DNA of 64,000 nt from positions 62,001 through 126,000 of the forward strand of contig CALDUT010000012.1 of the NCBI GenBank assembly GCA_937924775.1, in the 5' to 3' direction. A program made the position numbers and the translations under genes. Below the pieces are notes generated by a model. That model worked only from the letters and a program-made list of their open reading frames with translations, searched no databases and had not been told where the DNA came from. Positions 3,925-9,807 of the stretch are shown here, in pieces. Source of the DNA: an uncultured Gemmata sp. GTDB lineage: Bacteria > Planctomycetota > Planctomycetia > Gemmatales > Gemmataceae. The stretch's first letter is position 1; every line of letters begins with the position of its first letter.

Positions 3925-5562
3925 CTATTTATCTTCGAGAACCCGCACGTCGTTGCCGTTGGCCCCGCGCTTGTAGGTGGGCAGGTGCCGGTAGTAGACT
4001 TCGAGCGTCAGGGCGGCGATGGCGGTGGTGCCAAGCCGGCCGCAGCCGGTACCGAACCAGCCGTTTTCCGGGTTCCAACTGCCGCGGTTATTGGGGTCTT
4101 TCTTTTCTTGGGTTTGGATGAGCCAATCGCGCATACCGCCTTTGCGGGTGCCGTCGGGCTGTTTGGGGCCTTCGTTCCAGGTTTTCCACTCTTCTCCTTC
4201 GTAGAAGTGAACGACTTGCGTGGCGTAGTAGTAGTAGTACATGTTCCGCAGTTCACCCTGGCCGATGGGTGGATTTTTCATCAATCCAGCGACGCCCTCG
4301 ATCATTCCGGGGCTGCTCGGCCCCCAATTGGAGTCGATGTAATAGCGGCACAGCAAGCCCACAGCGGTCAGCGACGTGCCCGGACGAGCGCCGGTGTTAT
4401 CGCGGTAGCCATACATCGCCTTGCGGGAGCCGGCGGCGGCCAGGTCCAGGAAGTCGATCGCTTTTTTGATAACCCGGTCGTTGACGATGAGGTCTTTGGT
4501 GAGTTTCGCCGCTTGCAAGGCTTGAATCTGCCAACCGACGATGGAGGTATCCCCATTGGTGCCGGCGCTATAGCCCCAACTGCCGTTGGGGCCTTGGGCC
4601 TTTTGGATGTAGTTGATCGCGGCTTGGGCATAAGGCCGTAGGGCTGGGTCTTTGGTCATGCCGTAGGCTTCGCACAAGGCGATGGTGGCGATGCCTTGGG
4701 CATACATGTTACCGCTCATGCGTCCGGCGTTGGCTCCGCCCAGGGGGCAGATTTTGATAAGATACCCCAGGCCTTTGGCCACGGTTTGGGAGTAGTCTTT
4801 GACACGGTCTTTGGATTTCTTGTGGGTTTCGCCGGCGGCGAGGAAGGGCAGAAGGGCCAAACCGGTAGCGGCAGCCCGCTCTTCTTTGCGGCCTATGTCG
4901 AATTCCCAGCTGCCGTCGCTTTTTTGTTGCCGGGCCAGCCAGGCCAACGCCATGGCCACCGCCTGTTCGCTGGCTTCGTTACCACCGCCTTCACGCAGCA
5001 AGCGGGATTTGGTCGCCCCGCTGCGGCCATTGAGCCCGCCGTCGAAGCGGCCGCTGGCCCCGCCGTCGCCGAGTTTCATTGCGCCTTCCAAGCCGGTGGT
5101 GCCGGCGGTGTTGAAGTCGCTGGTCGCCAAACCCGGGGGGGCGTAAGTGGTGGGGTTTGGCTCGGTGACATCGGGGCGACCCAAAGCATCGTTGGTTTCG
5201 ATGAACTCCACGGTGCGTTCGGCCACTTCTTCGATGTGCGGCAAAGCCGCTTCAAAATTCGATTGCAGACCCAGATCGTCGTTGGTCAGATCGGGATCCG
5301 CAGGCTCATCGGTTTTGGCGGCGGTGGTGTTGAGGACTTTGTCGGAATTTCGTGCTTCGGTGCCGCGGGTGCCCAACACGAGAATCATCAGCGCGATGAT
5401 AACCACATGCATGGCCCCGCTAACCACCCACGCGGGAATGTGCTTTTTCAATAGCCGCTCTTGAGTGGTTTCTTCGGCGGCTTCAATGCGGCGAATGACG
5501 ACACCGGCCGCCGTCGGGGAGGCGGCGGGGAGAGGAACCGGCGAAGGGTTGGGAGTGGTCAT
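3925..5562 (-). CDS. Membrane-anchored alpha/alpha-toroid (prenyltransferase/squalene-oxidase repeat) protein with TonB-like anchor
   Basis: The 545-residue protein has a short cytoplasmic N-terminus, one membrane segment at about 44-64, a low-complexity periplasmic linker to about 190, and a C-terminal alpha/alpha-barrel region with repeated QxxDGSW-type motifs (QKSDGSWEF, QGPNGSWGY) typical of terpenoid-cyclase-like toroids. The DxDD acid motif of real cyclases is not seen, so it is probably not an enzyme of that type. The membrane segment carries S48-G-A-M-H52, which matches the S-x3-H motif by which TonB and TolA couple to ExbB/ExbD. It is the last gene of the exbB-exbD-exbD cluster. I infer a TonB/TolA-like energy-transducing protein whose periplasmic head is a toroid. 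Confidence 0.8.
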   Translation of the reverse strand: MTTPNPSPVPLPAASPTAAGVVIRRIEAAEETTQERLLKKHIPAWVVSGAMHVVIIALMILVLGTRGTEARNSDKVLNTTAAKTDEPADPDLTNDDLGLQSNFEAALPHIEEVAERTVEFIETNDALGRPDVTEPNPTTYAPPGLATSDFNTAGTTGLEGAMKLGDGGASGRFDGGLNGRSGATKSRLLREGGGNEASEQAVAMALAWLARQQKSDGSWEFDIGRKEERAAATGLALLPFLAAGETHKKSKDRVKDYSQTVAKGLGYLIKICPLGGANAGRMSGNMYAQGIATIALCEAYGMTKDPALRPYAQAAINYIQKAQGPNGSWGYSAGTNGDTSIVGWQIQALQAAKLTKDLIVNDRVIKKAIDFLDLAAAGSRKAMYGYRDNTGARPGTSLTAVGLLCRYYIDSNWGPSSPGMIEGVAGLMKNPPIGQGELRNMYYYYYATQVVHFYEGEEWKTWNEGPKQPDGTRKGGMRDWLIQTQEKKDPNNRGSWNPENGWFGTGCGRLGTTAIAALTLEVYYRHLPTYKRGANGNDVRVLEDK

Positions 5563-5717
5563 TTCGTGTCTCCAGGCTCATGAGATGGTTATTAGATTGT
5601 TGCACAGGATTCAGGATTCCGTCAATTCTCCTGATTTGAATCGCTGCCGGATTTTGTGGGTCGCCTCTCATTCGGATCGTTGTTCAGATTTCGCCACCGG
5701 CTCATCTCATACAGTGG

Positions 5718-7256
5718 TCATTGCCAGTCGGCCGAAGGGCTGACGGGGTTCTCAAAGGGGTTGCGGTTGCGGGCGTGTGTCATAGCCTCCTTCACCTGGC
5801 GGTCGCCACGGCGATACCACCACGCCAACCCACCCCCGGCGACAATCAGGACCGCCGCCACCAGTACCGTGGTATTCAAGAACGTGCCCCAGGTGAACGG
5901 CGATGTGTGGTTTGGATCACGTCGGGCGATCGGCCGTTTGCCAATCAACAGGGGCGCGTATTTGTCGAGCCGTCGTTCGGGGTTGTCGGGGTCGATTTCT
6001 GCGGATTCATAGCGGAGTTTCTTGAAGTAGTAGCCGGCGAACGTCACCCATTGGTTCACGCGACCGCTCGGTTGTAAGCCCTCCAGAGGTTCAGTGAAAA
6101 CAATGCACAGCGGGTAGCCCCCGTATTCATCTGCGGGGATCAGCCAGCCTTCGTAGTAGTGGGAAATCCCGGCGGCTTGCACTTCCGGACCGGTTTCAAA
6201 GCGGCGCAGGGAAATCAACCGCCCTTCGAATTTGATCAAATCCAGCCGATAACCGGGCGCAGAGCTATCCAGAAAGAGGTCCGCGTAGCGGATACCGGTT
6301 TGGGCGTATTTCTCCAATTCGTCCGCGGAGAACCGGGCCGCATGGAGCAGCACGCGGTCGTAGGCCGCAGCCTCTTCCCAGGGGGTGGTGAAGTCGTTGA
6401 GCTGGGGCCGGTTGGCAATCTTCAGTTTGTCGCGGATAAAACTGAAGATTTTCTTGTTTTTATCGATTCTGGTGGGGTCGTCGCCGGGGGCCACCGGTTC
6501 GTCGGCCAGCGGGGTAATGCTTCTGCCAGCCAACAGCGGCACGAGGATGTCCCCGGAGTGGCCCGGTACGGCCATGGTCTTGAAAAAATAGCCCGCGGCT
6601 TGAATCCACGCATCGGCTGGCATCCAGTCGCGGAAATGACGGTCACGCACAGCGGCCAACGCTTCAGGCAGATCGAGAAAGACGATGGATACCGGCGTCA
6701 GCGGCGACTCCCCCAAGGGCACGAACCGGGCTTCGTACACTTCAGAAACGTCGGTGAGAAACTGCGGGGCTTCCAGCCGACGCAGGCTAGTGAGCCGGCC
6801 ATCGAAGCGGATCAATTGTTTACGATAAACGCCGCGGAGGGGTTTGATCAAATCGATCGCGTACAGAGTCCGCAACCCCGCCTCTTCCAGTTCTGTCGCG
6901 GAGAATTGTTTGGCGTGCAGTAAAAATTCGCACCACGCCAGATACTCCAAGGCATTGTCGGCTTCCGACGCCACGGGTTTGAAGTCTTCGATCGCGGTGA
7001 ACAAGTGGCGATCCGAGTTGGGAATCGCGAAGCGTTCTCGGGCCGGCCTGTCGGGCGCATCGGCCGGGACCGGGCTTTTACGATCGACCACCGGAGGTTC
7101 GGGCATCGCCGTGGTCGCCGGCATCGGCGGTTGAGCCGTAACCGCCGATAGCGACGCCACCCCAAGGCCCACCCCCACCACCCAGCCCACAATCCCCCCC
7201 CTCGCGACGAGGCCGCCGCGAAGAAGCCAACCGGACTGTCGGCAGGGATTCCTCAT
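5718..7256 (-). CDS. Secreted, C-terminally anchored protein with an internally duplicated domain; function unknown
   Basis: The 512-residue protein starts at ATG 7256 after GGAGGAA and has a signal-like hydrophobic segment to about residue 41. Two homologous domains follow, marked by paired motifs: YLAWCEFLLHAKQFSATELE with YDRVLLHAARFSADELEKYA, IRFDGRLTSLRRLE with IKFEGRLISLRRFE, and AAGYFFKTM with FAGYYFKKL. A single membrane segment lies near 460-480, followed by a basic cytoplasmic tail of about 30 residues. I do not recognise the domain. Its place between the exbD pair and the toroid gene suggests it works in the same envelope complex. Confidence 0.8.
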   Translation of the reverse strand: MRNPCRQSGWLLRGGLVARGGIVGWVVGVGLGVASLSAVTAQPPMPATTAMPEPPVVDRKSPVPADAPDRPARERFAIPNSDRHLFTAIEDFKPVASEADNALEYLAWCEFLLHAKQFSATELEEAGLRTLYAIDLIKPLRGVYRKQLIRFDGRLTSLRRLEAPQFLTDVSEVYEARFVPLGESPLTPVSIVFLDLPEALAAVRDRHFRDWMPADAWIQAAGYFFKTMAVPGHSGDILVPLLAGRSITPLADEPVAPGDDPTRIDKNKKIFSFIRDKLKIANRPQLNDFTTPWEEAAAYDRVLLHAARFSADELEKYAQTGIRYADLFLDSSAPGYRLDLIKFEGRLISLRRFETGPEVQAAGISHYYEGWLIPADEYGGYPLCIVFTEPLEGLQPSGRVNQWVTFAGYYFKKLRYESAEIDPDNPERRLDKYAPLLIGKRPIARRDPNHTSPFTWGTFLNTTVLVAAVLIVAGGGLAWWYRRGDRQVKEAMTHARNRNPFENPVSPSADWQ

Positions 7257-7562
7257 GCCCGTTCCTCCAACACCTATTAGATGAGCCACCACCGCGGGAA
7301 GTTCCTCAGAAACGCCCCAGTTTCCTCACTTTTATTGTGGCCTATTGTGGCCGCTGTCCCGGCGCTGGTCAATCGAACGGATGTCCTTTTGTATTAATAA
7401 CTTAAGGCACTGATAGGAGCACAAAAGCCGTTCCCACCTCTGACCCCGGCTCCCGGAACCGTCCGCGGCCAGCCGCGGTTCCATCCCCACCCGGAGGCAC
7501 TCTTCAGCTCCCGGAGAAGTCCCATTCCAAGTGCCCGGGGCTTTGGCTTTAGGCGGGGCGAG

Positions 7563-8066
7563 TTAGCGTTTTTTGGGGTCGATTGGAACCGGCGAAATGT
7601 CGCTAAACCCAATCCGGATCGCCTGATCCACCAATTGAACCACGTAAGCTTGCACCAGTTTATCGTCGATTTCCAGCGTCAGTTTCCCGGTTTTGCCTTG
7701 TTGGGCAAGCTGTCGGGAGATTTGGGATAACCGATCGCTGAAGTTTTGTACATCGGCCTTGAGGTCTTGGGGCAGAGCCGCGGCGTTATCTTTTTCCATC
7801 AGGGTCATGCCGGCGATGCGACCATCCTCGGTGGCTTCCACCCGCACGATATATTCCAGCGGTTTGTTTTCGTCGATGGGACTGGGGCTGCTGATGCCCC
7901 CGCCTTCTTCCTTAGGCAACGCCAAAGCGATTTGCCCCTCGGTCGGGGCGGGTTTGAAGGTCATGATGAAGAAGGCCAACAGCTGGAAGGTCATGTCCAG
8001 CATGGGGACGATGGGCAGATCGGGATCGACGTGTTCGGGTATTTTTTTGCGTTTGTGGCTGAGCAT
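7563..8066 (-). CDS. ExbD/TolR family biopolymer transport protein (second copy)
   Basis: The 167-residue protein has a cytoplasmic N-terminus, one membrane helix with the essential aspartate in PMLDMTFQLLAFF (Asp24), and a periplasmic domain ending in a conserved-type helix. ExbD subunits form the core of the proton-driven ExbB5-ExbD2 motor that energises TonB or TolA. It follows another exbD with 31 bases between, so the motor here may be a heterodimer of two ExbD types. ATG 8066 is preceded at some distance by GAGGGAA. The periplasmic part contains a glycine/acid loop (KEEGGG) not usual in E. coli ExbD. Confidence 0.9.
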   Translation of the reverse strand: MLSHKRKKIPEHVDPDLPIVPMLDMTFQLLAFFIMTFKPAPTEGQIALALPKEEGGGISSPSPIDENKPLEYIVRVEATEDGRIAGMTLMEKDNAAALPQDLKADVQNFSDRLSQISRQLAQQGKTGKLTLEIDDKLVQAYVVQLVDQAIRIGFSDISPVPIDPKKR

Positions 8067-8097
8067 CAGTGCGTTTTCCCTCGTGCCCGGGTCGGAA

Positions 8098-8592
8098 TCA
8101 ATCAGGTTGCACAAGCAGGGCCCGCAGTTGTACGCGGAGATAACCGGCGCGGCGGCAAGCCTTCATGATCCCATACGTTTTCTCGAAGGGACAGTTTTTG
8201 TGAACCCGCAGAATGATGACCGAACGTAAGGGTTTGTCTTCGCCCCCGGGGCCGGCCGCGGCGATATCGTCGCGGGCCCGCCGTTTCAGGAACGTTTCGA
8301 CCTGATCCGGGTTATTCAACGTACTGATGACATTCCCTTGCGAATCGGTGTACTGATCACTAGGGGCCAACAGCACCACACCCTCGCTGTTGACATTCAA
8401 GTAAATCGCATACTCGATGCCCTTATCGAGCATTTTGGCCGCCGCCGCATGCGGCAGTTCGATCGTCACGTTGGCTTGTTCGATAACGAAGTTGGCGCAG
8501 AGCATGAAGAACATCACCAGCTGCAAGACCAAGTCGAGCAACGGGACGAAGTTCGGTTCACACTTTTCGGACGAAACTGCGCCGTGACTCAT
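8098..8592 (-). CDS. ExbD/TolR family biopolymer transport protein (first copy)
   Basis: The 164-residue protein shows the ExbD plan: short N-terminus, membrane helix NFVPLLDLVLQLVMFFMLCA with the proton-conducting Asp20, then a periplasmic domain. It is only distantly similar to the neighbouring exbD, so this is not a recent duplication. Its periplasmic part has a predicted loop (APSDQYTDSQGN) and a C-terminal CRRAGY region. It lies 90 bases downstream of exbB. A weak ribosome site (GGAA) precedes ATG 8592. Confidence 0.9.
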   Translation of the reverse strand: MSHGAVSSEKCEPNFVPLLDLVLQLVMFFMLCANFVIEQANVTIELPHAAAAKMLDKGIEYAIYLNVNSEGVVLLAPSDQYTDSQGNVISTLNNPDQVETFLKRRARDDIAAAGPGGEDKPLRSVIILRVHKNCPFEKTYGIMKACRRAGYLRVQLRALLVQPD

Positions 8593-8682
8593 AACAATTC
8601 CATCTTGGAAGCTGAACGATCACGCTTGCATTCGCGCCAGCAACGGCAGCACCACGCACTGGCGGGTTTGAGCTACGGAGAG

Positions 8683-9519
8683 CTAGCGGGGGCCGGGTTG
8701 CGGCGGGGGCGCAGGTACAGGTCCGGCTCCCGGCGGCGCCGCCGGTATCGGCGGGGCCGGTTTCTTCGAGTTGTGGTACATCTGCGTCAACAAATCGTCG
8801 GCGATGTGGCCTACATCCATACACACCCGCGTGATGCGGTTGCGATAGAAGGCATTGAAGAAAATCGCCGGTACCGAAATCGCTACCCCAAAGAGCGTCA
8901 CCACCAGGGCGTGAGCGATACCGTCGGCCAATTCGCTGGGGTTGACCTGCTTGGCCGTGGCCAGAACAGAGAAGGCCTTGATCATCCCATAGACGGTACC
9001 GACCAACCCGAACATCGGACCGAGCGTTGCGATCACCGCGGTGTAGTTGTTCTTTTGTTCTTTGTCGCTTTTGATGCTCTCCAGGGTGTTGGCCGCGGCC
9101 TCGCGGGCATCTTCCAGGCCGTATTGCAAGCGACTCATGCCCGCGGTGAGGACCTGCCCGAGGAAGGAGGGATCGTTGCGGGCCATATCAAACGCCTCTT
9201 TGAACTTCCGCTTGTTGACAATGTCGGTGAACTCGTCGACAAATCCCGGGGGGATCGCCGAGATCATCCGTAAATCCAAGGCCAATAAGACAATCAGCGC
9301 CAACAGGGTCACCGACACTGCCAACAGCAATGGGCCAAACACCCAGCCCAATGCCTCGAGCATGAAGACCACCAGATTGGTCCGCGCCGGTGCGGCTTCA
9401 TCGGGAGCCGTGTCCTGCGCGTGGGCCACATTGACGACGAGCAGCACAACTGCCATCGCCATAACGACTTGCGTCAAGAACCGGATGGCGGGAAGATACC
9501 GATACGGCGAAGGAGTCAT
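8683..9519 (-). CDS. ExbB/TolQ/MotA-family proton channel protein
   Basis: The 278-residue protein has a hydrophobic signal-like segment ending VAHAQ, then the ExbB plan: one membrane segment near 55-85, a cytoplasmic stretch with SRLQYGLEDAREAAANTLE, and two helices near the end containing LGPMFGLVGTVYGM and VVTLFGVAISVPAIFFN, which match the TolQ-ExbB channel helices. The C-terminus is a Pro-rich tail (PAPPIPAAPPGAGPVPAPP). It is the first gene of a minus-strand set with two exbD genes and a TonB-like toroid protein. The start at 9519 is uncertain, since no strong ribosome site is present; ATG 9549 is an alternative. Confidence 0.9.
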   Translation of the reverse strand: MTPSPYRYLPAIRFLTQVVMAMAVVLLVVNVAHAQDTAPDEAAPARTNLVVFMLEALGWVFGPLLLAVSVTLLALIVLLALDLRMISAIPPGFVDEFTDIVNKRKFKEAFDMARNDPSFLGQVLTAGMSRLQYGLEDAREAAANTLESIKSDKEQKNNYTAVIATLGPMFGLVGTVYGMIKAFSVLATAKQVNPSELADGIAHALVVTLFGVAISVPAIFFNAFYRNRITRVCMDVGHIADDLLTQMYHNSKKPAPPIPAAPPGAGPVPAPPPQPGPR

Positions 9520-9807
9520 ACAACGAATCCCAGAAGGGCGAATCCTCATTCGAGCGGCCGCAGCGCCCCGTGACGTGCTTTCACTTGGACGCGGCCCCTC
9601 ATCAGTTGGTTCCCGTAAATGTCGCAACGGTCGGCCACAAGCGCGTCAAAATTCTGCCAGCGGCCATGCCACCACCTATGGCCGGCTGACTATCTGCTAA
9701 CTAATAGGATGACACAGCGGCCTGCGCGTCAAGTCGGAAGTGGCGAAATTTTCGCCACCGCCGATGGGTCGATCATCTCCACCTGGTCGTTGCGTACCAG
9801 CCGTTTT

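Follow-up and report, generated by a model that had tools for sequence, protein, structure and literature searches.

A planctomycete ExbB/ExbD gene cluster with a probable Ton/Tol-like transducer bearing an alpha/alpha-toroid head

The motor gene cluster and its anchored toroid protein

The window analyzed here is a stretch of 64,000 nucleotides from an uncultured Gemmata sp. of the phylum Planctomycetota (GenBank assembly GCA_937924775.1, contig CALDUT010000012.1, positions 62,001 to 126,000). On its minus strand, a cluster spanning positions 3925-9627 contains exbB, exbD1, exbD2, a gene for a 524-residue protein of OB type, and a gene for a 545-residue protein with an alpha/alpha-toroid head, in the order of transcription. 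An earlier note, made from the sequence alone, had described five minus-strand genes here, including exbB and two different exbD genes. It was found that the open reading frames (ORFs) are present and that Pfam confirms the motor subunits. The exbB/tolQ-type ORF was called at 8683..9627, with an ATG at 9519 as the likelier start, and its product matches MotA_ExbB (6.7e-24, 84.5 bits, above the cut-off). The products of exbD1 (8098..8592) and exbD2 (7563..8114; the ATG at 8066 is the likelier start) match ExbD at 8.7e-15 and 9.8e-12 (55.4 and 45.5 bits, above the cut-off) and are 13% identical to each other. Asp20 in the membrane helix of ExbD1 aligns with the conserved Asp of ExbD/TolR, which is also present in ExbD2.

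The ORF of the 545-residue protein (3925..5562, minus strand) is supported by Pfam and by an AlphaFold2 model that was run on a 49-sequence alignment. The model has a membrane helix at residues 44-64 (5371..5433), with a mean predicted local distance difference test score (pLDDT) of 85 for residues 41-50 and 94 for residues 51-60. Inside this predicted helix lies S48-G-A-M-H52 (5407..5421), the Ser-x3-His motif of the TonB/TolA type, just as the earlier note had placed it. A disordered linker of about 105 residues follows (residues 68-173; 5044..5361; pLDDT below 50 in 68-94 and 96-173), and the protein ends in a confidently modelled alpha/alpha toroid (residues 182-525; 3988..5019). Thus, the layout is TonB-like: a helix, a disordered linker, and a globular head. 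The nearest named relative found is encoded on a Gemmata sp. metagenome contig (91% identity).

The head has the fold of the class II terpene cyclases. The Pfam scan gave SQHop_cyclase_C (4e-7) and no TonB_C. The best solved sequence by profile is a squalene-hopene cyclase (E 2e-17), and the closest solved structure is the squalene-hopene cyclase 2sqc (Z 26.0, root-mean-square deviation 3.0, 281 residues aligned), followed by related cyclases and by sugar enzymes of the (alpha/alpha)6 type, cellobiose 2-epimerase and GH76 among them. These results bear out the proposal of a terpenoid-cyclase-like toroid in the place of a TonB or TolA C-terminal domain. Is the protein simply an active terpenoid cyclase that lies beside exbBD by chance, so that the squalene cyclase annotation is literal? 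Its best solved relatives, by profile and by fold, speak for this. However, DXDD, the acid motif of class II terpene cyclases, is not conserved: a D.DD pattern occurs in 15 of 119 toroids (counted from the core start onward) at scattered places, and is absent from the toroid core of the 545-residue protein. A membrane helix and a disordered linker also precede the head. A literal terpene cyclase was rejected for want of a conserved DXDD, and I consider it very improbable.

The toroid residues Y287, E298, D338, S340, Y442, W459, N463, R509, and E521 are strongly conserved. The conserved set includes polar and aromatic side chains (Y287, E298, and W459, for example), so the toroid likely has a functional pocket. 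The protein may then act in the periplasm as an enzyme or carbohydrate binder, tethered to the motor and sensed or recruited by it, with no force passing through the toroid. The fold, common to terpene cyclases and to (alpha/alpha)6 sugar enzymes (cellobiose 2-epimerase, GH76), fits such a role, as do the pocket suggested by Y287, E298, D338, and the other conserved polar and aromatic residues and the existence of anchor-less paralogs that are secreted proteins or lipoproteins by their N-termini. However, mere tethering would not need the strict retention of S-x3-H described below, and the long disordered linker is the layout of a force transducer. I regard tethering without force as rather unlikely. 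It does not exclude a transducer, since a pulled head may bind a ligand too.

The 524-residue protein (5718..7292, minus strand), for which an ATG at 7256 is possibly a better start, was given no family by the Pfam scan. Its model, of medium confidence (pLDDT 70), has two OB-like domains (about 114-262 and about 305-451), which match OB folds of the SSB type, as well as terminal helices. It had been noted as a secreted protein with a duplicated domain. The duplication stands, as two OB-like domains. The secretion probably does not, as the predicted N-terminal helix (26-51) and C-terminal helix (468-508) point to a membrane-attached protein. The tight linkage of its gene to the toroid gene suggests a shared complex with the toroid protein.

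Conservation of the anchor and of the motor residues

Is the Ser-x3-His anchor conserved among toroid proteins? Loci of the phylum were picked from the best-listed matches to the window's 545-residue protein, mostly one per genome, and are not a random draw. Together with the window, the fetched loci gave a set of 125 toroid ORFs, 93 with the helix columns and 32 without them. The 32 comprise fragments, paralogs that lack the anchor, and proteins with additional helices upstream, and several of the last kind do carry S-x3-H that was overlooked by the profile alignment. For the count of motor adjacency given further below, 15 ORFs were reassigned by helix inspection: three to S-x3-H, seven to A-x3-H, and five to anchored toroids without His. 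In the 93 rows, Ser is found in 84 and His in 87. Among the 92 rows with complete helix columns, the entropy is 0.51 bits for Ser and 0.47 bits for His, and the values printed for the other 26 columns are 1.75-3.85. Both residues occur together in 80 of these 92 homologs and in 29 of the 33 rows that share less than 50% of core residues (non-redundant). Thus, Ser and His are conserved above chance. The earlier note had let its reading stand or fall with S-x3-H in the homologs, and there the motif is.

A crude motif rule was positive for 86 of 127 toroid ORFs, a set that takes in fragments and paralogs without an anchor (85 when one lipoprotein, judged a false positive, is subtracted). Of 290 non-toroid ORFs whose only helix is N-terminal, the same rule picked out 7, and three of these seven are pieces of transducers, namely two vWA proteins and one split toroid. 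Some anchored toroids (L102 6510-9844, L085, L121, and L046) have His replaced by T, V, I, or N; they are candidates for uncoupled paralogs.

A profile made from the 125 toroid ORFs only, with no TonB included, was compared with a collection of 12,591 ORFs. It aligned E. coli TonB with Ser and His in register (E 2.2e-4) and also matched the TonB of genome G021 (1.5e-4) and three vWA proteins (0.001-0.007). The TonB of G012 was not matched among these ORFs. An anchor-only profile of 34 columns, again with no TonB in it, was run on the same ORFs at E<=0.5. One split toroid piece aside, it matched seven distinct non-toroid ORFs: the TonBs of G021 and G012, where TonB_C was located; three vWA-headed proteins (by Pfam), each at most 5 kb from exbB; a PD40 protein adjoining exbD; and a chance ORF of 70 residues. 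Five of the seven are thus TonBs or motor-adjacent vWA transducers, a result that speaks for resemblance and not for a rate, since the ORF collection overrepresents the neighbourhoods of exbB and exbD.

The motor subunits retain the expected residues at most positions. Ser105, Thr211, Thr244, and Pro253 of the window ExbB align with Ser34, Thr148, Thr181, and Pro190 of E. coli ExbB. The pore residues Thr211 and Thr244 are invariant across 12 aligned ExbB/TolQ sequences, and the membrane-helix Asp is invariant across 12 aligned ExbD/TolR sequences, both window ExbDs included. In E. coli, according to the available part of PMC12215075, Ser16 and His20 of TonB contact Ser34 and Trp38 of ExbB, and Trp38 contacts Pro190. 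Of 110 ExbB-like ORFs overall, 67 have Ser at position 34. This position is Ser in all 13 ExbBs beside a partner with S/A-x3-H versus none of the three beside motif-less toroids (Fisher 0.0018, with kinship ignored).

Gene order and distribution in the phylum

A profile of the OB-type protein matches 18 of the 19 genomes of the window's genus; the exception, G309, is 68% complete. Eighteen loci of the genus were read. The order exbB-exbD-exbD-OB-toroid was found at all 15 untruncated loci, some of which have an extra exbD-like ORF and two of which have a split toroid gene. The other three clusters are cut by contig ends, and their remaining parts agree with the common order. S-x3-H is present in all 17 toroids readable at the genus loci. 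The two split genes (L037 6939-8579 and L042 7938-9562) are interrupted by an in-frame stop or a frameshift, which may be an assembly error or decay. In another genus of the family (L237), the order is exbB-exbD-exbD-OB-toroid-toroid, with S-x3-H in both toroids. In four further relatives, the OB and toroid genes form pairs but exbBD is absent from the fetched stretch, and S-x3-N replaces S-x3-H in two of these pairs (L238 1771 and L239 1998).

Several other arrangements were found. In one family of Planctomycetia (L089, L105, L123, L125, and L205), exbD is followed by a toroid with S-x3-H. Elsewhere, the toroids that come after exbB-exbD have a PD40 propeller, and the S/A-x3-H helix is found in L069, L073, and one of the two such toroids in L093. 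In these proteins (L069 4156-8403, L073 4636-8640, and L093 3-3947), PD40 repeats detected by Pfam precede the helix with S/A-x3-H and the toroid head. The other protein of L093 (3785-6193) has PD40 and a toroid without the motif, and a protein of L149 (1891-3360) has PD40 and S-x3-H without a toroid; both lie beside exbB/exbD. The order exbB-exbD-toroid without the motif was seen in L107 and L108. On a tree of toroid cores, the motor-adjacent toroids fall in at least three places.

Immediately upstream of exbB, and clustered with it, lie two toroid paralogs with secretion-like or lipoprotein-like N-termini (L038 557-3835 and L040 3-1580). Soluble toroids may therefore cooperate with anchored ones. 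A different, widespread cluster (L193-L212, e.g., L193 2267-8990 and L203) consists of genes for a protein of about 1000-1350 residues and a protein of about 400-480 residues, exbB, exbD, and exbD. Three of its large proteins were scanned: TPR repeats were found in two of them, and the third (L197) had no Pfam match. This cluster, which has the sole ExbB match in several genomes, resembles the TPR-tolQ-tolR-tolR module in the accessible part of PMC12204202.

How widespread are toroid proteins? Matches were found in 256 of 294 genomes of the phylum by protein search and in 40 of 40 genomes by profile, with 1-33 per genome, anchored or not. A single ExbB match was found in 9 of 59 genomes (G001, G013, G020, G022, G023, G042, G047, G052, and G053). 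The first five of these, which the toroid profile search covered, hold 25, 33, 15, 20, and 8 toroid matches, respectively, anchored and unanchored together, which makes it plausible that one motor is shared by many toroid clients.

The window's own genome has nine toroid matches, and the anchor columns are covered by the window copy only. The TonB C-terminal domain was found in 42 of 59 genomes and the plug of TonB-dependent receptors in 28 of 40, and neither was found in this genome. It is therefore unlikely that the toroid protein serves classical TonB-dependent receptors in its own bacterium. A vWA transducer of the same genome was also considered and set aside; the single match covers only profile positions 164-284 and not the anchor. 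The genome has a second exbB-exbD-exbD set (C10), with no S/A-x3-H helix within the fetched 17 kb.

Proposed mechanism and comparison with known systems

Taken together, the sequences argue with fair assurance that the 545-residue protein is a Ton/Tol-like transducer with a toroid head, driven by the proton motive force. The earlier note had read the locus as a Ton/Tol-like energy-transduction system, and this reading is supported, with force transduction itself as an inference.

Several observations pull the other way. In the window ExbB, the position of Trp38, the second TonB contact, is Leu. Among the 110 ExbB-like ORFs, some of them redundant or MotA-like, 10 have Trp and 45 have Leu at this position, and one ExbB that adjoins a TonB has Leu as well. 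Since most ExbBs of the set, that one included, have a residue other than Trp there, Trp38 does not separate the users of TonB-type anchors. The contrast at position 34 (13/13 versus 0/3) was drawn from related sequences. The toroid profile did not match E. coli TolA, its alignment with E. coli TonB extends into the low-complexity linker, which contributes to the score, and the anchor-only profile missed both E. coli TonB and TolA at E<=0.5. Nor is the full SHLS motif present: the window protein has Met at His+7 and Leu at His+11, where SHLS expects Leu and Ser. In the homologs, Leu is found at His+7 in 49 of 93 rows, and Ser at His+11 is neither conserved nor among the common residues of these rows. 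In the Ton system too, the Leu and the last Ser are less conserved (PMC12215075, in the part available). The D-box strand of the TonB/TolA family binds ExbD, as stated in the accessible part of PMC10907165. This pentamer of alternating hydrophobic and polar residues is not enriched after the toroid helix (15 of 91 linkers versus 9.1 in shuffled ones and 9 in the next 35 residues), and the window protein has none. A less strict strand pattern, present in 18 of 91 linkers versus 3.8 shuffled, was defined after viewing the sequences and was given no weight.

Gene adjacency is the last of these points. The toroid had been expected beside exbB/exbD; this holds within the genus and recurs elsewhere, but not phylum-wide, where exbB or exbD lies within 6 kb of only 13 of 87 S-x3-H toroids, a count that takes in contigs that stop near the toroid gene. 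It would be 14 of 88 with L040 3-1580, which was left out because its N-terminus reads as a lipoprotein signal. When the count is limited to S-x3-H toroids for which 3 kb or more of upstream sequence was available, 13 of 73 have exbB or exbD near. Adjacency is a weak criterion, as tonB and exbBD are separate in E. coli too. May the S-x3-H helix instead pack against a membrane partner other than ExbB, with the adjoining exbBDD genes serving another client? The distance of most anchored toroids from exbB/exbD would fit, as would the Leu at the Trp38 position and the unenriched D-box. On the other hand, the gene order is constant in the genus and recurs in other lineages, and the anchor profile retrieves TonB and vWA transducers. 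In the window's own genome, where neither a TonB C-terminal domain nor a vWA match reaching the anchor was found, there are few other clients to be seen. I consider a partner other than ExbB improbable.

How would a Ton/Tol-like transducer with a toroid head work? ExbB pentamers and ExbD1/ExbD2, probably a heterodimer that forms the rotor as a pair, would use the proton motive force. The 545-residue protein would dock its single N-terminal helix outside the ExbB ring via Ser48 and His52, like TonB/TolA. The flexible linker of about 105 residues would extend into the periplasm and transmit force, so that the toroid head grips a partner and the motor pulls on it. The OB-fold protein may be an accessory piece of this toroid-motor complex. 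The docking on ExbB, the force transmission, the ExbD heterodimer, and the partner binding are all inferred. The anchor-linker-toroid design is widespread in Planctomycetota and often multicopy, and most copies read lie away from exbBD and presumably share motors.

The toroid proteins form a real and conserved family, probably functional and motor-coupled and much wider than the earlier note could see, and, judging from the sequences, they likely transmit force. Related proteins with the same helix across the phylum suggest an unstudied kind of force-transmitting protein. A broader proposal, for which the balance tips only slightly toward yes, is that toroid transducers driven by the proton motive force occur phylum-wide, that a good share of planctomycete genomes encode several to many of them, and that they share one or a few ExbBD motors. 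They would be the main Ton/Tol-type clients where no TonB C-terminal domain or TonB-dependent receptors show, and would pull on novel partners in the periplasm or outer membrane. Ton/Tol motors are among the few routes by which inner-membrane energy reaches the outer membrane. If the proposal is true, planctomycetes, with their unusual envelope biology, have evolved powered periplasmic tools of their own, and many proteins known to family searches only as squalene-cyclase-like would be assigned a function. Ser48 and His52 offer a two-residue handle on the role of each toroid copy.

Among the open-access papers listed by literature searches, none treats toroid transducers, judging by title or abstract. 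Known systems differ from the toroid proteins in various respects. The toroid fold of the 545-residue protein is that of class II terpene cyclases (2sqc, 8pak, and MstE 6sbd). Unlike these enzymes, the protein has one toroid domain, a membrane anchor, and a linker, and lacks a conserved DXDD. With TonB/TolA, it shares the single N-terminal helix with Ser-x3-His, the disordered linker, the globular periplasmic head, and the motor genes of ExbB/ExbD type. In contrast to TonB/TolA, its head is an alpha/alpha toroid in which Pfam found no TonB_C, the final Ser of SHLS is unconserved, and the D-box is unenriched. Since they lack the TonB/TolA C-terminal domain and the complete SHLS and show no enrichment of the D-box, the toroid proteins are not members of the TonB/TolA family.

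A parallel is found in the work of Williams-Jones et al. (2025), who described, in the part of PMC12204202 available, vWA-headed transducers of the PVC group and other bacteria with an SHLS helix beside a tolQ-like gene and two tolR-like genes. The "new type of effector" of the earlier note is therefore right in kind, but heads other than that of TonB on S-x3-H anchors were already published for vWA proteins. The main text of that paper, as far as available, does not mention cyclase, prenyltransferase, terpen-, hopene, squalene, or toroid. Like the vWA transducers as described there, the toroid proteins have the anchor, the flexible linker, a non-TonB head, and often one tolQ-like gene and an unlike pair of tolR-like genes nearby, and the anchor profile retrieves three vWA proteins of the layout given in the same text. 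Unlike them, the 545-residue protein has a toroid head with no VWA in the Pfam scan, and its gene partner encodes a tandem OB protein and not the TPR protein of that account. Thus, the toroid proteins are a class parallel to the vWA transducers, outside the TonB/TolA family.

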